A stretch of 64,000 bases of DNA from positions 124,001-188,000 of the forward strand of contig NZ_CP034660.1 of assembly GCF_003971255.1 (NCBI RefSeq), in the 5' to 3' direction. A program made the translations under genes and the position numbers. Of the stretch, positions 9,384 to 27,880 are shown one piece after another. The stretch's first letter is position 1, and each line of letters begins with the position of its first letter. This stretch comes from Colwellia sp. Arc7-635. GTDB lineage: Bacteria; Pseudomonadota; Gammaproteobacteria; Enterobacterales; Alteromonadaceae. The notes beneath the pieces were generated by a model. The model saw nothing but the letters and a program-made list of their open reading frames with translations, was not told the DNA's origin and searched no databases.

Positions 9384-9900
9384 TACCGAAACAAATCGGA
9401 CATCAAAATTATAAAGAGCAGATATTAATAGCAACAGAAAGTGATAAGTTTTCTGAAAATTAACTTTGCATAATTGAGCTAGCCCTTGCTAAATATAGCT
9501 TATGTTTTTTTGTTATTTCTAGGTGTCATATAACGGTAAAAATAGTTTAATAATTGTCTGGTAATGACGTAATTTTCTGGTAACCTCTTAGCTCGCTTAT
9601 TTCTATTGCTCGTTAAATGAACAGTGAAATTTGCGCAAAGACATTTATTTATCCACATAATAAAAAAAATAATAATAATTATGTGAAAAGGATTTCTGAC
9701 TCACCTTTTTTCATTAATTACAGTTACTTAAATCAAACTATCCATAAAGTTCGTCAGATCTTTAAGGTTTTTCCCCATGCTTTTCAACATACTTATCCAC
9801 AATTTCCATTATTTCGTGTGACTAAATATGATGAAGTGCTAGAGAGAATTTGCCGATTATGGCATGCTTAGCCAATCTTTCTTCCAGTCAAAAAATTATC
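9384..9900 (+). promoter_or_regulatory. polA upstream region with two consensus DnaA boxes
   Basis: Between menA and polA lie two exact 9-base DnaA boxes TTATCCACA, at 9649-9657 and 9793-9801 on the same strand. A near match, CTATCCATA, is at 9738-9746. An A/T-only tract (about 9658-9680) follows the first box. The spacing between the exact boxes is 144 bases. DnaA has been reported to stimulate polA expression in E. coli, so control of polA by DnaA is a reasonable reading. A titration site is an alternative. A full replication origin is not supported because dnaA, gidA and mioC are absent. Confidence 0.6.
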
Positions 9901-12645
9901 ATGCCAACTTCTGACCAATCACCGCTCATTTTAGTCGATGGTTCATCCTATTTATTCCGTGCATATCACGTACCATACTTACAAGCTTTATCAACTTCAG
10001 CAGGCCAACCTACGGGTGCTATAACTGGCGTTTTGAATATGTTCAGAAGCCTGAAAAAAGACTATCCCAATGGTAATATTATTGCGATATTTGATGCTAA
10101 GGGGAAAACGTTTCGTAATGACATGTATTCAGAATATAAAGCGAATCGACCACCCATGCCGGATGATTTACGCACGCAAATTGCGCCAATACATGAAATT
10201 ATCACTGCCATGGGTTTGCCGCTTTTAGTTATTGAAGGCGTTGAGGCAGATGATGTTATTGGCACGTTATCGCACCAAGCAACGGCATTAGGTATTGAGA
10301 CTGTGATCTCTACCGGCGATAAAGATATGGCTCAGTTAGTTAATCCGCATGTGCGTTTAATTAATACCATGACCAATGTTGAGATGGATGAAGCTGGCGT
10401 TATTGAAAAGTTTGGTGTGCGTCCTGACCAAATAATCGATTACCTTGCCTTGATGGGCGATAAAGTTGATAACATTCCAGGTGTTGAAAAATGTGGCCCT
10501 AAAACGGCAGTAAAATGGTTAACTGCACATCCTAGTTTAAAAGAAGTAATGGAACATGCTGATGAAGTTAAAGGTAAAGTAGGTGAGAACTTACGTACCG
10601 CTTTAACACATTTACCACTTTCTTATGAGTTAGCCACCATCAAGCTTGATGTTGAACTTGAGCAAACCGTTGCTGAACTAAAACCTGTAGCACCAGATAC
10701 CGAAGCATTGAGATCACTTTATCAACAATATGAACTCAAACGTTTGTTAACTGATTTAGATGCAGGTGATAGCAAAACAGCTAACGCTGTGACAGAGACT
10801 AGCGTTGAAGTTGCAGAACTTCCTGCAGACGTTGATAGCGAATACGAGATTATTCTCGATAAAGCGAGCTTTACCGTTTGGCTTGAAAAACTAAAGGCTG
10901 CTGAGCTTTTTGCTTTTGATACAGAAACCACCAGCGTTGATTATATGAAAGCTAAGTTAGTTGGCTTGTCATTTTGTATTGAAGCCGGAAAAGCAGCTTA
11001 TGTACCATTGACCCATGATTATATTGATGCACCAGAGCAACTTGAACTGGACTGGGTACTTGAGCAATTGAAACCGTTACTCGAAAGTGGAACCTGCCTT
11101 AAAGTCGGGCAAAATTTAAAATATGATGCCAATGTACTTTCGCATTACGATATTGTAATGCAAGGTATCGCATTTGACACCATGCTTGAGTCTTACTGTT
11201 TTAATAGTGTCGCAACACGCCATAATATGGATGCTTTAGCAGATAAATATTTAGGCTATAAAACGGTACATTTTGAAGATATCGCAGGTAAAGGCGCAAA
11301 ACAGTTAACCTTTAATCAAATAGAGATTGAAAAAGCGGGTCATTATGCCGCTGAAGATGCTGATATTACCATGCGTTTACATCAAGCTATTTACCCACAG
11401 TTAGCCAACATACCATCGCAGTTATCGGTATTTACTGAAATTGAAATGCCATTACTTCCTGTGCTTGCTCGTATGGAGCAACACGGCGTATTAATTGATT
11501 GTGATATGTTAGCTGAGCAAAGTCAGTCAATTGGCGCACGTTTAGCCGAGTTAGAAATTGAAGCGCATAACTTAGCCGGCAAAAGTTTTAATCTAAGTTC
11601 GCCTAAGCAGCTACAGGTTATCTTATTTGAAGAGCTAGAAATTCCGGTCATTAAGAAAACACCGAAAGGGGCGCCTTCAACGGCGGAAGAAGTGCTACAA
11701 GAATTGGCATTAACTTATCCATTACCGAAAGTTATTTTGGAAAACCGTGGATTGAGTAAGTTGAAGTCAACTTATACTGATAAATTACCATTGTTGGTTG
11801 GCGCAACAACGAATCGTGTTCATACCTCTTATCATCAGGCGGTTACTGCGACGGGTCGTTTATCTTCGACCGATCCAAACTTACAAAACATTCCAATTCG
11901 AAGTGAAGAAGGGCGTAAAATACGCTTAGCTTTTATTGCGCCGAAAAATCACAAGATTGTCGCGATAGATTATTCTCAAATTGAATTGCGCATCATGGCA
12001 CATTTATCTGATGATCCAGGGCTTGTGAAAGCTTTTTCTGAAGGTAAAGATGTTCATAAAGCCACAGCAGCAGAAATATTTGCGGTACCGCTTGACGAAG
12101 TAACCACAGATCAACGTCGTAGTGCGAAAGCGGTTAACTTTGGCTTAATTTATGGTATGTCAGCATTTGGTTTAGCGAAACAGCTTAATGTTCCTCGCCA
12201 TACGGCACAAGCGTATATGGACAAGTACTTTGAACGTTATCCTAATGTTTCTCAGTATATGGAAGATACGCGTCAGAAAGCGACCGAGACGGGCTATGTT
12301 GAAACCTTATTTGGCCGTCGACTTTATTTACCAGACATTAATGCAAAAAATGGTATGCGTAAAAAAGCGGCTGAACGTGCTGCTATTAATGCACCAATGC
12401 AAGGTACCGCTGCAGATATTATCAAGAAAGCTATGTTGGCGGTTGACGCTTGGATATTAGAGCAAAACGACCCTAGAATTAAAATGACCATGCAAGTTCA
12501 CGATGAATTAATTTTTGAAATTCATCAAGACATTGTTGAAGCAACAACAGCGACTTTAGTTGAGATAATGAATAACGCTATTACCATGAGCGTACCGCTT
12601 ATTGCCGAGGCGGGTATTGGCGATAACTGGGAGCAAGCTCATTAG
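9901..12645 (+). CDS. polA: DNA polymerase I
   Basis: Repair and Okazaki-fragment polymerase with all three activities. The 5' nuclease domain occupies about residues 1-300 (LVDGSSYLFRAYH, GDKDMAQL). The proofreading exonuclease is intact, with D340 and E342 in FAFDTET, the conserved Asp of QNLKYDANVL, and the YAAEDAD motif. The polymerase motifs are IDYSQIELRIMAH (A), RRSAKAVNFGLIYG (B) and MQVHDELIFE (C). ATG 9901 gives 914 residues beginning MPTSDQSPLILVDGSS, which matches the family start. The upstream ATG 9850 would add 17 unrelated residues. A terminator follows at 12754. In many gammaproteobacteria spf and engB directly follow polA. Here a different putative RNA gene follows, and engB lies 12.5 kb away. 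Confidence 0.98.
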   Translation: MPTSDQSPLILVDGSSYLFRAYHVPYLQALSTSAGQPTGAITGVLNMFRSLKKDYPNGNIIAIFDAKGKTFRNDMYSEYKANRPPMPDDLRTQIAPIHEIITAMGLPLLVIEGVEADDVIGTLSHQATALGIETVISTGDKDMAQLVNPHVRLINTMTNVEMDEAGVIEKFGVRPDQIIDYLALMGDKVDNIPGVEKCGPKTAVKWLTAHPSLKEVMEHADEVKGKVGENLRTALTHLPLSYELATIKLDVELEQTVAELKPVAPDTEALRSLYQQYELKRLLTDLDAGDSKTANAVTETSVEVAELPADVDSEYEIILDKASFTVWLEKLKAAELFAFDTETTSVDYMKAKLVGLSFCIEAGKAAYVPLTHDYIDAPEQLELDWVLEQLKPLLESGTCLKVGQNLKYDANVLSHYDIVMQGIAFDTMLESYCFNSVATRHNMDALADKYLGYKTVHFEDIAGKGAKQLTFNQIEIEKAGHYAAEDADITMRLHQAIYPQLANIPSQLSVFTEIEMPLLPVLARMEQHGVLIDCDMLAEQSQSIGARLAELEIEAHNLAGKSFNLSSPKQLQVILFEELEIPVIKKTPKGAPSTAEEVLQELALTYPLPKVILENRGLSKLKSTYTDKLPLLVGATTNRVHTSYHQAVTATGRLSSTDPNLQNIPIRSEEGRKIRLAFIAPKNHKIVAIDYSQIELRIMAHLSDDPGLVKAFSEGKDVHKATAAEIFAVPLDEVTTDQRRSAKAVNFGLIYGMSAFGLAKQLNVPRHTAQAYMDKYFERYPNVSQYMEDTRQKATETGYVETLFGRRLYLPDINAKNGMRKKAAERAAINAPMQGTAADIIKKAMLAVDAWILEQNDPRIKMTMQVHDELIFEIHQDIVEATTATLVEIMNNAITMSVPLIAEAGIGDNWEQAH

Positions 12646-12753: not shown

Positions 12754-12780
12754 AGGCCTCTTTTTAGAGGCCTTTTTTTT
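12754..12780 (+). terminator. Rho-independent terminator after polA
   Basis: AGGCCTCT and AGAGGCCT form an 8-bp perfect stem with a TTTT loop, followed by eight T. It lies about 110 bases after the polA stop. Confidence 0.92.
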
Positions 12781-12908
12781 GCTTTAAATTTTAGCTATTT
12801 GTCTTAACTTAACCTGCGTAGTAAATGAAAAAACTAGTAACCAGCACATTTAACTTTAGCTTTTATAGTGATAAAGGAACAAAAGTGAAAATAAATTACA
12901 CTTTGTGC

Positions 12909-12938
12909 TTTACAGGTTTAGAGTTGTTACTCTATAAT
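12909..12938 (+). promoter_or_regulatory. Sigma70-type promoter with internal dyad, drives the small RNA at 12945
   Basis: TTTACA (12909-12914) and TATAAT (12933-12938) are separated by 18 bases. A dyad TAGAGTTGTTACTCTA (12919-12934) fills the spacer and overlaps the -10, where a repressor would block polymerase. The same layout with the same spacing recurs on the minus strand at 27809-27838. Confidence 0.7.
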
Positions 12939-12944
12939 GGCTTT

Positions 12945-13035
12945 GTTCCTAACGTGAACGCTTGTTGTAATAATTTATATTTCTAGCTCTCCTCATAGCT
13001 TGTACGCCAATAACTTTGTTGTTGGCTTTTTTTTT
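12945..13035 (+). ncRNA. Putative small RNA, copy 1 of a two-member family
   Basis: A predicted 91-nt RNA between polA and a small Cys-rich gene. The promoter places the start at G12945. The 5' end can fold as GUUC-N7-GAAC. Next come an unpaired UUGUUGUA and AU-rich stretch, then a hairpin with AGCU arms and the loop CUCCUCAU, then a terminator with a 9-bp stem (GCCAATAAC/GTTGTTGGC, 13006-13026) and nine T. The first 40 bases from the -35 match copy 2 at 32 of 40 positions without gaps. It sits where spf (Spot 42) lies in other gammaproteobacteria but does not resemble Spot 42. The CUCCU loop is complementary to a Shine-Dalgarno core, so translational control is a guess. A 33-codon GTG frame (12885-12986) overlaps it, but the matching frame in copy 2 is closed. 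Confidence 0.7.
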
Positions 13036-13280: not shown

Positions 13281-13376
13281 ATGGGATGTTGTGGACAATG
13301 TGGCGGTGAAGGCCATGAACCAGTAGCAGAGCAAGAGCAAACAGAAGAGTCAGTTGAAACAACTGAAGAAGAGTAA
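13281..13376 (+). CDS. 31-residue Cys-rich, acidic-tailed small protein
   Basis: ATG 13281 is preceded by GGAG at 13270-13273 with good spacing. The peptide starts MGCCGQCGGEGHEP and ends in a strongly acidic, Glu/Thr-rich tail (EEE*). Three Cys in CCGQC suggest a metal or cluster ligand, but this is inference. Its own terminator at 13391 supports a real transcription unit. It resembles small CCGSCS-motif-type proteins, annotated without known function in marine gammaproteobacteria. I cannot confirm membership without a profile search. It is cytosolic by sequence, with no signal or membrane segment. Confidence 0.72.
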   Translation: MGCCGQCGGEGHEPVAEQEQTEESVETTEEE

Positions 13377-22878: not shown

Positions 22879-23499
22879 TTACTTTAACGACGAAGCATAT
22901 TGCGCTAATGCGGTAATTTCTTCATCAGTTAAGTTTGCTGCAACACCTTGCATCATGGCATTAAGGTCATTGTTACGAGAGCCATTACGGAATTTCTCTA
23001 GTTGGCTTTTTAAGTATTCTGCATTTTGGCTAGCAAGTGCAGGGAAACCTGCGTTTGGCATGCCTTTACCATTAATACCATGACAAGCAACACAAGCGGT
23101 TACTTCCATTTCAGCATTACCGCCTAAATACAGTTTTTTACCGGCTGCATTCGCGGTGCCGTTTCCTGCGGTTATTTCTTGGCTTGCATAGAACGCAGCA
23201 ACATCAGCGATATCTTGCTCGCTCAATGTCATTGCCATACCACCCATTACTGGGTCAACACGGCCTGATTTACCAGCAGAAGTCATACCTAATTTAAATT
23301 CAGTCAGTTGTTTAGCTAAGTAACTAGCGCTTTGGCCAGCTAACTTAGGGTAAATAGTGACTAAGCTGTTGCCGTCAGTGCCATGACAAGCAGCACACAT
23401 AACTGATTTGCCTTTACCTGCTTCGGCATTGCCCTGGGCTGCATGGGCAGTAGTTACTGCGCTTAATCCTAATAAAACAGTAAAGATAAATTTTTTCAT
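22879..23499 (-). CDS. Diheme cytochrome c4
   Basis: Periplasmic electron carrier with two class I heme c sites, CAACH and CVACH, one per half. Axial Met residues are probably in the DPVMGGMAM and NAMMQGVA stretches. ATG 23499 (206 residues) places the signal peptide MKKFIFTVLLGLSAVTTAHA first. The frame extends upstream to 23562 but adds residues ahead of the signal. Cytochrome c4 normally passes electrons to terminal oxidases such as cbb3. A larger paralogue follows at 23692 on the same strand with its own terminator between, so the two are probably separate transcripts arising from a duplication. Confidence 0.92.
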   Translation of the reverse strand: MKKFIFTVLLGLSAVTTAHAAQGNAEAGKGKSVMCAACHGTDGNSLVTIYPKLAGQSASYLAKQLTEFKLGMTSAGKSGRVDPVMGGMAMTLSEQDIADVAAFYASQEITAGNGTANAAGKKLYLGGNAEMEVTACVACHGINGKGMPNAGFPALASQNAEYLKSQLEKFRNGSRNNDLNAMMQGVAANLTDEEITALAQYASSLK

Positions 23500-23639
23500 T
23501 GGTTTAGTCTCTGCTTGTGATAACACGATAAATGTTTTGGGCGAAATAGTATATTTCGGCATTCTACACGAATTTAATGATTGTTAATATTGTGCTGAAA
23601 AAAATCAATTAAATCTACTACTAGATCATGGGGTATAAA

Positions 23640-23669
23640 TAAAAAAAGCAGCGATAGTCGCTGCTTTTA
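23640..23669 (-). terminator. Terminator after the tetraheme cytochrome gene
   Basis: AAAAGCAGCGA and TCGCTGCTTTT form an 11-bp perfect stem with a three-base loop and a T tract on the minus strand. Confidence 0.92.
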
Positions 23670-23691
23670 GTTAATCAGTTTATTGCTAAAC

Positions 23692-24912
23692 CTATTTCAT
23701 TGACGCCATGTACTTCGCTAATTCATCCATATCGTTAGATGAAAGTTTTGAAGCAACGCTTTGCATCATGGTGTTGTAATCGTTATTACGCTCACCTTTT
23801 TTGAATTTCATTAATTGTGCTTTTAAATAAGCTTCGTTTTGACCAGCAATTGTTGGGAAACCAGCTTTATTCATGCCTTTACCGTTAACGCCATGACAGG
23901 CAACACAAGCGGTTATTTTACGTTTAACGTTACCGCCAAAATAAAGCTCTTTACCAATATCAGAACCGGCTAAGTCAGCAACAGCAATTTTTTGTGCTGA
24001 AAAGTAGCTTGCAAGCTCTACCATGTCTTGATTGCTTAATGCTGCAGCCATAGGTCCCATAACAGGATCTTTACGCGTACCAGACTTAAATTCTTGTAAC
24101 TGTTTTACGATGTAATCAGCACTTTGACCTGCTAGTTTCGGATAAATAGCAACAGGGCTATTACCGTCAGTACCATGACAAGCTGCACAGGTAACTGATT
24201 TAGCTTTACCTGCGATAACTTCAGCAGTAACAGGTGCCGCTGGCATTACTCGGCGAGAAACTACATTCGCAACGGCCGCTGGGTCAGCAAAGTAAGCAGT
24301 CATGTCAGCAATATCATCATCCGTCATGTTGCCAGCAAACTGGTTCATAGCGTAGTTGATACGGTCTTTGTTTTTAAAATTCATTAACTGTTTAGCAATG
24401 TATTCAGGATGCTGGTTAGCAAGGTTAGGGTAAATTAACACCTCGCTGTTACCTTCGCTACCATGACAACCAATACAAGCACCAATGCTGCGAGAAGCAT
24501 CGCCTAATTCGTATAAGCTTTTACCTGCTGCAGGATCTGGCACATAAGCGATAGGTGCTGAACTTGCACCGGCACTAGCTGAACCAGTATCTGTGCTGCC
24601 GCCATCGTGCGGTAAGCTTGAAAAATATGCCGCAACGTCAGCCATATCTTGTTCAGATAAAGGCGCAGCCATAGCCGTCATTACCGGGTCTTTACGATCG
24701 CCAGCTTGAAAGCCTTTTAGCTGTTTAACAATATAGTCTGCATGTTGACCGGCTAGGTTGGGGTAGCTATCGCTAGCACCAATACCGTTAGCGCCATGAC
24801 ATGCCGCACAAGTGGCTGCCTTAGCTTTACCTGCTTCAACGTCGCCTGATGCGGCTACAGCAATATTAATACTTAATAGTGTTAAAATTAGTGAAGTTAA
24901 AATACGTTTCAT
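23692..24912 (-). CDS. Tetraheme cytochrome c made of two cytochrome c4 units
   Basis: A 406-residue exported protein with four heme c sites: CAACH 35-39, CIGCH 146-150, CAACH 242-246 and CVACH 336-340. Each is followed by the c4-type segment YPNLAGQ, YPNLANQ, YPKLAGQ or FPTIAGQ and a Met-containing stretch (DPVMTAMAA, NYAMNQFAG, DPVMGPMAA, TMMQSVAS). Ordinary cytochrome c4 is diheme and about 200 residues, so this is a tandem fusion of two c4 modules. A low-complexity Ser/Gly/Ala linker (residues 104-119) separates heme domains 1 and 2. The signal peptide ends at AVAA. The third and fourth domains are closest by eye to the two halves of the diheme neighbour. Confidence 0.9.
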   Translation of the reverse strand: MKRILTSLILTLLSINIAVAASGDVEAGKAKAATCAACHGANGIGASDSYPNLAGQHADYIVKQLKGFQAGDRKDPVMTAMAAPLSEQDMADVAAYFSSLPHDGGSTDTGSASAGASSAPIAYVPDPAAGKSLYELGDASRSIGACIGCHGSEGNSEVLIYPNLANQHPEYIAKQLMNFKNKDRINYAMNQFAGNMTDDDIADMTAYFADPAAVANVVSRRVMPAAPVTAEVIAGKAKSVTCAACHGTDGNSPVAIYPKLAGQSADYIVKQLQEFKSGTRKDPVMGPMAAALSNQDMVELASYFSAQKIAVADLAGSDIGKELYFGGNVKRKITACVACHGVNGKGMNKAGFPTIAGQNEAYLKAQLMKFKKGERNNDYNTMMQSVASKLSSNDMDELAKYMASMK

Positions 24913-25110: not shown

Positions 25111-25767
25111 TTGTCTTCTACAGTCATTCATCTAAGCAAAGCGACTTTTACTCTTAGCGCACCCGATATCCGTCGTTTACCCGCAGATAGTGGTATTGAA
25201 GTTGCATTTGCAGGTCGCTCTAACGCAGGCAAGTCGAGTGCGTTAAATACATTAACTAATCAAAGAAGTTTAGCACGTACCAGTAAAACACCAGGACGAA
25301 CTCAGCTGATCAATATTTTTGAAATTGCTGAAGACAAACGTTTGGTCGATTTACCAGGCTACGGTTTCGCCAAAGTGCCAATGGAAATGAAGAAAAAATG
25401 GCAAAAAGCTTTGGGCGAATACCTAGAAAAACGTGAGTGCTTAAAAGGTCTAGTGATCTTAATGGATATCAGACATCCGTTAAAAGACCTTGATATGGAC
25501 CTAATTCAATGGGCCGCTGACGGCGAATTACCTGTTTTAGTGCTATTAACAAAAAGCGATAAACTTTCTCAAGGTAAAGTCAGTGCGCAAGTACTTGACG
25601 TTAAAAAGAAGCTAGCATCATTAAATGCTGATATTAAAGTACAAGCTTTCTCATCATTAAAACGTACGGGTTCAGAACAAGCAGACAAAGTTATTTGTGC
25701 TTGGTTTCAAGACGAAAACATTCAAGAGTTAACTGAATTGAGTGAAGAGCCTTTAATCGAAGAGTAG
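25111..25767 (+). CDS. engB: Ribosome biogenesis GTPase EngB (YihA)
   Basis: Essential TRAFAC GTPase needed for large-subunit assembly. Motifs: G1 GRSNAGKS (35-42), switch region KTPGRTQL, G3 DLPGYG, G4 TKSD. The length is 218 residues. The best start is TTG 25111, giving [13 protein letters not shown], with no in-frame ATG before the conserved region. It is divergent from the cytochrome genes, an arrangement I recall from other marine gammaproteobacteria. A strong terminator follows at 25792. polA, its usual neighbour, is 12.5 kb upstream here. Confidence 0.97.
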
Positions 25768-26425: not shown

Positions 26426-26923
26426 TTATCTTTCTGGCAGTACCCAGTCAGCTCTTGGAAAATGGCAAGTATAGCCATAAGGTACACGCTGTAAGTAATC
26501 TTGATGCTCTACTTCCGCTTGCCAAAAGTCACCTACTGGCTCAAGTTCTGTTACCACAGTGCCAGGCCATAAACCGGAAGCATTAACATCGGCAATAGTT
26601 TTTTCAGCCATCGCTTTTTGTGCTTCACTGGTATAATAAATGGCCGAGCGGTATTCACTACCTCGGTCATTACCTTGTCTATTTTCGGTTGTTGGATCAT
26701 GTATTTGAAAAAAGAAGGATAAAATTTTTCGATAACTGATCACGGTATTATCAAAATAAATTTCAAGGCCTTCAGCATGATCACCATGATTTCGATAAGT
26801 CGCATTAGCGATACTACCGCCGGTATAACCAGCACAAGTTTTGCTCACACCGGGCAACTGACGAATTAAATCTTGCATGCCCCAAAAGCAACCACCCGCT
26901 AATACTGCGCGTTCAATCGTCAT
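26426..26923 (-). CDS. msrA: Peptide-methionine (S)-S-oxide reductase
   Basis: Repairs oxidised methionine (S epimer). Classical active site [10 protein letters not shown], then [43 protein letters not shown] and the C-terminal VEHQDYLQR. The length is 165 residues, with no C-terminal resolving Cys pair, so recycling probably uses thioredoxin on a short form. It begins three bases after the msrB stop, indicating a co-transcribed pair that covers both epimers. Confidence 0.96.
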
Positions 26924-26926
26924 AAT

Positions 26927-27370
26927 TTAACCCTCAACCTGTGATAAATAAGCTTCGTAGCCTTCTTTAACCATATCAGCTCGGGCAATAAACTTAAGTG
27001 AAGCCGAATTTATACAATAACGAAGTCCACCTTGTGCAACGGGACCGTCAGTAAAAACATGCCCTAAGTGACTATCGCCGTGAGTTGAGCGCACTTCGGT
27101 ACGAACCATTCCATGAGTGTTGTCGGTAATTTCATTAACATGAATCGCTTCAATAGGCTTACTGAAACTAGGCCAGCCACAACCGGAGTCAAATTTATCA
27201 GCAGAAGCAAATAAAGGTTCGCCTGAAACCACATCAACATAAATACCAGGAGAGGTGTTTTCTAATAACTCACCAGTCCAAGGGCGCTCAGTGCCACTTT
27301 CTTGAGTAACACGGTATTGTTCAGCCGTTAATGTAGCAATAACTTCGCTTGATTTTTTATATTGAGACAT
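26927..27370 (-). CDS. msrB: Peptide-methionine (R)-S-oxide reductase, zinc-free type
   Basis: Reduces the R epimer of methionine sulfoxide. The catalytic Cys is in [12 protein letters not shown], with a second Cys in SGCGWPSF. The two CxxC pairs that bind zinc in E. coli MsrB are absent: the first site reads [13 protein letters not shown] and the second [11 protein letters not shown]. It therefore belongs to the zinc-less subtype. The length is 147 residues. It is first in the operon, followed by msrA and the MsrA-like gene with gaps of three and two bases or so. AGGAGA precedes the ATG. Confidence 0.95.
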
Positions 27371-27712: not shown

Positions 27713-27802
27713 AAAAAAACCGATGGCAAAAGGGGCCATCGGTATAGTTAGCTTGGGGAAGCTAGAATTCAAAATTAATACAACAGGTGTTCTAACGAGA
27801 AC
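27713..27802 (-). ncRNA. Putative small RNA, copy 2 of a two-member family
   Basis: A predicted 90-nt RNA on the minus strand upstream of msrB. The start is expected at base 27802. The RNA begins with a perfect hairpin GUUCU-CGUU-AGAAC. A CUGUUGUA/UUAAUUU single-stranded stretch follows, then a hairpin UAGCUU-CCCC-AAGCUA, and then a terminator with a 9-bp stem (ACCGATGGC/GCCATCGGT, 27719-27743) and seven T. The promoter, 5' hairpin, central stretch and second hairpin align with copy 1 (12945-13035), but the terminator is unrelated in sequence. No gene overlaps it sensibly. The C-only loop could pair with G-rich ribosome sites (inference). I do not recognise it as a named RNA family. Confidence 0.72.
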
Positions 27803-27808
27803 AAATTC

Positions 27809-27838
27809 AGTATAGAGCAACAACTCTATAAAAGTAAA
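27809..27838 (-). promoter_or_regulatory. Promoter with internal dyad for the small RNA at 27713-27802
   Basis: On the minus strand TTTACT (27838-27833) and TATACT (27814-27809) are 18 bases apart. The dyad TATAGAG-TTGTTG-CTCTATA occupies 27811-27830 with perfect 7-bp arms. It is the same arrangement as at 12909-12938. Confidence 0.7.
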
Positions 27839-27880
27839 GTCTTTACTCTAAATAAATGTGAAAAAATAATAAGGGGGCGT

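Follow-up and report, generated by a model that had tools for sequence, protein, structure and literature searches.

Two sibling small RNA genes in a Colwellia genome, one of them at the place of Spot 42 behind polA

The two genes and their surroundings

The window, which denotes the whole stretch of 64,000 nucleotides analysed here, carries two predicted small RNA genes of similar build, sRNA1 directly downstream of polA and sRNA2 beyond engB. Their elements are given below together with the neighbouring protein genes, the names of which (polA, engB, cytochromes, msrA, msrB) were recognised from translations without a family search.

9850..12645, plus strand: polA, the upstream neighbour of sRNA1 and, elsewhere, of Spot 42; named by recognition
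12886..12900, plus strand: HexR-like box TGAAAATAAATTACA, matching TGTAATTAAATTACA at 13 of 15 positions, at -59 of sRNA1
12909..12938, plus strand: promoter of sRNA1, -35 TTTACA (12909-12914) and -10 TATAAT (12933-12938), kept in relatives
12919..12934, plus strand: spacer palindrome TAGAGTTGTTACTCTA of sRNA1 between -35 and -10, a possible operator
12945..13035, plus strand: sRNA1, predicted transcript of about 91 nt with a 5′ hairpin, the UUGUUGUA stretch, an AGCU hairpin and a terminator
12945-12959, plus strand: predicted 5′ hairpin of sRNA1
12985-13000, plus strand: AGCU hairpin of sRNA1 with a C-rich loop
13006-13026, plus strand: terminator of sRNA1, followed by a U-run
22879..24912, minus strand: two c-type cytochrome genes, of the kind found behind engB in several genomes; named by recognition
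25111..25767, plus strand: engB (yihA), which many other genomes have on the downstream side of Spot 42; named by recognition
26426..27370, minus strand: msrA-msrB, downstream of sRNA2; named by recognition and from the sequence-only reading
27713..27802, minus strand: sRNA2, predicted transcript of 90 nt with a 5′ hairpin, the UGUUGUA stretch, a hairpin and a terminator with U-run
27764-27749, minus strand: hairpin UAGCUU-CCCC-AAGCUA of sRNA2
27802-27789, minus strand: 5′ hairpin of sRNA2
27809..27838, minus strand: promoter of sRNA2, -35 TTTACT (27838-27833) and -10 TATACT (27814-27809)
27828-27813, minus strand: spacer palindrome TAGAGTTGTTGCTCTA of sRNA2
27835..27852, minus strand: X box TTTAGAGTAAAGACTTTA, matching TTTAGAGYAAANACTTYA at 18 of 18 positions, at -50 of sRNA2

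An earlier, sequence-only reading of this DNA had described the two genes as a paralogous pair, and both indeed proved to be conserved in relatives. Its count of 32 matches in 40 for the ungapped block from the -35 element to GTTC is exact (12909-12948 on the plus strand against 27838-27799 on the minus strand), and elsewhere in the 64 kb not a single 40-mer, whichever the strand, has as many as 26 matches to this promoter block; a recount of the alignment returned the same 23 of 29 for the block after the hairpin. None of 500 shuffles matched as well as the bodies of sRNA1 and sRNA2 match each other, and the genome itself has exactly two places with the sRNA. The predicted start base is a G in both cases, at 12945 and 27802, and the full units, boxes included, reach upstream to approximately 12886 and 27852, respectively. 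In folding, both RNAs are more stable than shuffled sequences (z of -3.2 for sRNA1 and -5.4 for sRNA2), and both terminators consist of a 9-bp stem, as had been noticed before, and a U-run. An own promoter, a short non-coding body and an intrinsic terminator with a U-run are present by sequence and constitute the layout of an Hfq-type sRNA. The two are very probably real sRNA genes, and that they are siblings within one RNA family is likewise very probable.

Some of the earlier structural claims needed correction. The 5′ hairpin had been thought to differ in sequence between the copies with its pairing kept; the GUUC/GAAC stem is identical in both, and the differences consist of one extra pair and the loop, hence of no compensatory change. 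The AGCU hairpin, described for both copies, belongs to the minimum-energy structure in the case of sRNA2 only, and not in that of sRNA1. The lack of a named family was borne out, with Rfam 15 giving nothing at gathering score within the window. Weak matches to Qrr (RF00378; 13.5 and 20.1 bits, gathering score 50) and to Hrs13 (RF02631; 21.9 bits, E 0.001-0.002, gathering score 52) align mostly over the terminator. An identity with Hrs13, Qrr or GadY was dismissed, the matches being terminator-driven or far below the gathering score, and so was one with VrrA (19.2 bits versus 50).

Conservation and the two promoter types

Used as a DNA query, the polA-side gene matched 24 of 60 genomes, its own included, although four of these (G038, G040, G054 and G058) have no more than short, chance-like matches at E 0.006 to 0.01. 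The palindrome TAGAGTTGTTNCTCTATA was found in 21 of the 60 when one mismatch was allowed; three of these genomes (G036, G037 and G046) are from outside the family, and their matches did not register as sRNA copies. The arms of the sRNA1 spacer palindrome are conserved and its centre is variable. A covariance model of promoter and RNA built from 31 sequences, here called R1 and of the kind that the sequence-only reading had proposed, showed orthologues to be widespread in the family, with matches in 73 of its 196 genomes and 20 of its 52 genera, seven of the 73 being weak at 37 to 46 bits (G032, G086, G190, G222, G250, G288 and G306). Over 247 genomes of the order R1 matched nine, all of which belong to the same family, and nothing outside it, so that the link to the relatives in other families described below rests on the upstream box and the C-rich hairpin.

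Of the three helices only that of the terminator has pairs changed on both sides, eight of its nine in the alignment of 31 rows, where the 5′ hairpin is 96.6% and the AGCU hairpin 93.4% paired with no double change in either. The changed stem bases that had been taken as a sign of selection are thus real for the terminator; for the 5′ hairpin they do not exist between the two copies and appear once distant relatives are added, in which the stem reads GUUC/GAAC, GUCUU/AAGAC, GUCUC/GAGAC or GUCCUC/GAGGAC with the pairing kept. In 52 of 55 sequences the predicted 5′ stem has 3 bp or more, and the three that have lost it (L015, L016 and L018) are polA-side copies from the window's own genus. The C-rich loop is predicted to be exposed, with a median unpaired probability of 0.93 over the 55 sequences, and the corresponding value for the UGUUGUA stretch is 0.76. 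Tandem copies were seen in two loci, three in L143 (G263) and two in L144 (G240), with near-identical bodies and differing promoters, which suggests gene conversion.

The promoters fall into two types. The comparison drew on 23 promoters of Spot 42 genes in the family, obtained from 24 tried loci of which several share a genus, and on 74 different sRNA copies picked by pattern from L001-L166; polA lies no more than 1 kb away in 31 of the copies but not in the other 43. The thresholds were at least 12 of 15 positions of TGTAATTAAATTACA for the HexR-like box and at least 15 of 18 for the X box. The HexR-like box is found in 18 of the 23 Spot 42 promoters, 23 of the 31 polA-side copies and nine of the 43 others, three of these nine (L025, L116 and L135) having both box types, as compared to 0.9 to 1.4% of shuffles; it lies mostly at -57 to -59 in Spot 42 and mostly at -59 in the polA-side copies. 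The X box, written TTTAGAGTAAATACTTTAA and mostly located at -50, occurs in none of the Spot 42 promoters, in five of the polA-side copies and in 34 of the others (0.1 to 0.3% of shuffles), and it shares one motif, TAGAGTnnnnACTYTA, with the spacer palindrome, from which it is 22 bp apart in sRNA2. The GCTT stretch after the HexR-like box of sRNA1 likewise agrees with the Spot 42 promoters of the family, and the copy in locus L145 carries a Spot 42-like GCTTGCACC.

The TGTAATTAAATTACA-type motif is a predicted HexR site in PMC11906056, and a HexR gene is present in the genome of the window (521 bits versus a cut-off of 296). HexR sites upstream of a promoter are linked with activation in the same paper, and HexR, if acting at -59, would be upstream of the promoter and thus at a position tied to activation (PMC11906056). 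On this sequence evidence, the chances that sRNA1 is under HexR, and thereby sugar catabolism, control appear evenly poised.

With up to two mismatches, the X box was found 26 times in 15 genomes, 13 times at sRNA loci, the reversed control giving nine matches. Neighbours were recorded for 12 of the 13 other matches and include a DUF1302 gene in G040 (family f6) and G086 (Rheinheimera), a FadL-like gene in G131 (family f21, probably Vibrio), TolQ/thioesterase-like genes in G032 and G209 and a TetR gene in G000 and G168, the rest, several of them inside genes, looking like chance. These neighbours provide a lead, and only that, to a link of the X-box input with lipid or acyl-CoA genes. The TetR gene (PF13972) has an X-box-like site with one mismatch upstream in all five genomes of the window's group (L367-L371) but in none of 19 further loci with TetR-like genes, and is therefore no more than a candidate for the X-box regulator; this comparison took in 25 out of 28 matches of the TetR-like kind, in one of which the gene start could not be located. 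In L343 and L346 the X-box-like site near 1501 (G000:C1:4511981 and G168:C12:219977) adjoins the TetR gene, with coaD on the other side, which in G000 lies behind a SnoaL-like gene. Among the X-box-like sites of L363, L364, L361 and L223, those outside Zobellella lie close to a FadL-like gene or to DUF1302 genes, the latter in two families; the Zobellella site is exact, and the gene behind it is presumably fadD-like.

Spot 42 and its neighbour in the polA-engB interval

The placement after polA and before msrB was correct in the sequence-only reading, which had missed that the former site is the Spot 42 (spf) locus. Spot 42, a widely kept carbon-regulating RNA of the order, was matched in 54 of 119 order genomes. 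Its model (RF00021) has no match at E 0.001 in the genome of the window, and even with E values of up to 10 it matched neither sRNA1 nor sRNA2, the gathering score being 80 bits. In 196 genomes of the family, taken to be those searched with R1 as the number and the listed handles agree, Spot 42 was matched in 50, at 35 bits or more in 39 and above the Rfam cut-off in one. Where R1 matches strongly, in 66 genomes, Spot 42 never exceeds 31 bits; five of the 66 have weaker Spot 42 matches, located at least 240 kb away from the R1 places or on a different contig. In 91 of the 196, R1 has no strong match and Spot 42 does not reach 35 bits. No recognisable Spot 42 is present in the polA-engB interval in the window's group.

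The genomes with weak R1 matches provide the complementary picture. Spot 42 with a relative of these RNAs directly behind it is found in six of the seven, five being Rheinheimera or Arsukibacterium and the sixth G190, and the order in Rheinheimera and Arsukibacterium is polA, Spot 42, the relative and engB; in the seventh, Rheinheimera sp. D18 (G222), the relative lies between polA and engB and Spot 42 has no match. The relatives have in common an upstream box TTTTTAGAGYAAATACTTYAAA, a stretch CCUGUUGA and a hairpin UAGCUUCUCCCC..GCUA. Among the 24 Spot 42 loci of the family that were read, 12, L164 included, have the relative behind Spot 42; in 11 of the remaining 12 the site is taken by another probable sRNA or by other sequence. 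The former, seen by eye in L173-L183 (for example L174, L177 and L178) from several genera, has a GAACTT-N16-TCTNA-like promoter, a GGTTTATGTGTGTCCC-like body and a terminator. The promoter resembles that of sigma-E.

Comparisons of the bodies further separate these RNAs from Spot 42. Against the Spot 42 body of the Arsukibacterium locus L184, shuffles did equally well in 327 of 500 cases for sRNA1, 181 for sRNA2 and 128 for the relative, whereas against the Arsukibacterium RNA of the same locus sRNA2 was equalled by two and sRNA1 by 72 of 500; the similarity of sRNA1 to the latter is therefore not significant and the link runs via sRNA2. sRNA1 is alike Spot 42 in its place behind polA and has the upstream box kind and distance of most family Spot 42 genes, but its body is unrelated, has no covariance-model match and is without the GUAGGGUACAGAGGUAAGAUG start. 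An identity of sRNA1 with Spot 42 was rejected on the body, which has no model match and a similarity no better than shuffles. Box type and body comparisons together imply that sRNA1 combines an upstream region of the Spot 42 type with a body that belongs with sRNA2.

In other families, Spot 42 also occupies the polA-engB interval and is followed by engB and often by a cytochrome c gene, and a C-rich hairpin is found by eye behind Spot 42 in six of 27 loci (L077, L079, L080, L082, L084 and L087). The pattern AGCTTCTCCCCN{2,9}GCTWW was found in 46 of the 394 genomes of the order searched, which represent 11 of 115 genera, as compared to eight for the reversed control; a few of the 46 look like chance. 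The RNA of family f6 is the same as that in the Shewanella-named loci L207 and L281, in which Spot 42 was not found by sequence pattern. A scan of GTDB contigs for the box with a -10-like TATA returned 104 stretches, of which the 28 outside Gammaproteobacteria look like chance and the remainder come chiefly from Rheinheimera, Arsukibacterium, Alishewanella and Photobacterium, Shewanella and Thalassotalea being represented in smaller number. In 24 of the 104 that were read, Spot 42 lies up to 450 bases upstream in 11 and was not found by pattern in 13; in the Photobacterium loci the box follows Spot 42, but the C-rich hairpin is missing. In 17 related loci the only Rfam family to reach its gathering score was Spot 42, in three of them. 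With no Rfam 15 entry at such a score, the RNAs of Rheinheimera, Arsukibacterium, Thalassotalea and relatives represent a new sRNA family to annotate, and the polA-engB interval, as these loci suggest, often hosts a second sRNA.

Among the published counterparts, VSsrna24 of Aliivibrio is approximately 60 nt long, downstream of spf, repressed by glucose and expressed opposite to Spot 42, and it is reported as limited to Vibrionaceae (PMC3295665, Hansen et al. 2012); an sRNA beside spf is hence not new as such. As judged from its published description (PMC3295665), VSsrna24 is alike the RNAs of Rheinheimera and other relatives in being an sRNA of the polA-spf-engB interval downstream of spf, but is shorter than the 90 and 91 nt predicted here and involves no takeover of Spot 42. 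A CU-rich stretch ahead of the terminator, seen by eye in L060 and L062 (probably Vibrio), is a further likeness. NgncR_162/163 of Neisseria are likewise two adjacent, similar Hfq-binding sRNAs acting on metabolism (PMC9973317); no sequence relation to them is claimed, and the present pair differs in its upstream boxes and in having one sibling in the place of Spot 42. The words polA, engB and Spot were not found in the main text of PMC5471319 on sRNAs of Shewanella piezotolerans, and neither the present conserved family outside Vibrionaceae nor a takeover of Spot 42 was found in the literature covered, which took in the smaller part of the subscription journals.

Origin and possible function of the pair

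The explanation that accounts best for these observations, with a probability of roughly two in three overall, is that the neighbouring sRNA has overwritten Spot 42 under the promoter of the latter, and that both siblings act in trans by pairing. The ancestral seat of the RNA family would have been directly downstream of Spot 42 between polA and engB, and in the lineage of the window a copy of the neighbour would have replaced the Spot 42 gene. sRNA1 would thereby have kept the HexR-like box of Spot 42 at -59 while encoding the RNA of the neighbour, and sRNA2 would have kept the neighbour's own box (TTTAGAGTAAA..., -50). From the promoter sequences, such a takeover of the control region is probable.

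A later inversion of the block of sRNA2, engB and the cytochrome genes would have moved sRNA2 away to its present position ahead of msrB. In the window's genus the first sRNA gene lies behind polA and the second ahead of msrB-msrA, and the msr genes adjoin the second copy in this genus only; in G017, G023 and G028, of other genera, the copies are located between polA and engB or adjoin either. The order and strands in the window (cytochromes minus, engB plus, msr genes, sRNA2 minus) match what an inversion of sRNA2-engB-cytochrome would produce from the order in G028 or G017, and the location of sRNA2 beyond engB fits such an event.

Two other histories of sRNA1 have to be weighed against the takeover. 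It might be a plain tandem duplicate of the neighbour, inserted after Spot 42 had been lost and equipped independently with a HexR-like box, which is conceivable for a short, A+T-rich box and has a parallel in the promoters of L144, L148 and L149, where half a box accompanies the X box; the box type, the -59 register and the GCTT stretch are however as in the Spot 42 promoters of the family, and the Spot 42-like element of L145 also speaks against an independent gain, which makes this rather unlikely. More doubtful still is that sRNA1 is a Spot 42 diverged past recognition and its neighbour an old tandem duplicate, with the shared body brought about by later gene conversion. Its place behind polA, an upstream box of the Spot 42 kind that is equally far from the start and the near-identical tandem copies of L143 and L144, as expected of gene conversion, would agree with this history, but the Spot_42 model matches neither sRNA1 nor anything in the genome at the limits given above, none of the bodies resembles Spot 42 better than shuffles do, and in Rheinheimera Spot 42 and the relative exist side by side.

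Readings that deny the pair a pairing function fare worse. That the RNAs act by binding a protein, for instance as a CsrA decoy, would suit short, structured molecules with exposed loops, but is very improbable considering that the C-rich loop is both conserved and exposed and that repeated GGA motifs, a feature of CsrB-type RNAs, are by eye absent from sRNA1 and sRNA2. Silent or decayed copies, or a mobile repeat, with no regulatory RNA at all are scarcely credible, as promoter, body and terminator are kept in all the family genomes and genera matched by R1, if weakly in seven genomes, the genome of the window has two places with the sRNA, and the terminator pairs are maintained via double changes.

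As to the function of the pair, the exposed C-rich loop (CUCCUC or CCCC) would pair with purine-rich ribosome-binding sites, to which the loop CUCCUCAU (or CCCC) is complementary, and repress the target mRNAs at the level of translation, probably with Hfq. The balance is slightly in favour of this loop as the main seed, with the UGUUGUA stretch as a second candidate. sRNA2 would be controlled by a putative regulator reading TAGAGTnnnnACTYTA. The pair might then feed two inputs into one type of RNA, sugar through the HexR-like box and a second, possibly lipid-linked one, and so rewire a carbon regulator, for which the balance is about even. If true, a global carbon regulator has been rewired by the takeover of an RNA gene: genera around Thalassotalea appear to have lost Spot 42 and to have another RNA under a control region of the same type. 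Such a replacement of a global RNA regulator is directly testable, the place and the upstream box being the same and the RNA different.

Two minor features of the window may be added. A G(C/T)(C/T)TAAA(A)TT-like stretch follows terminator U-runs at 12773, 13027 and 13410 on the plus strand and at 27719 on the minus strand; the GYCTAAAATTT-like stretch was dropped as a part of the sRNA unit, since it also trails other terminators in the window. Between sRNA1 and an M16 peptidase gene lies a small open reading frame of 31 codons (13281-13376), which starts with MGCCGQCGGEGHEP and has a cysteine-rich start and an acidic tail.
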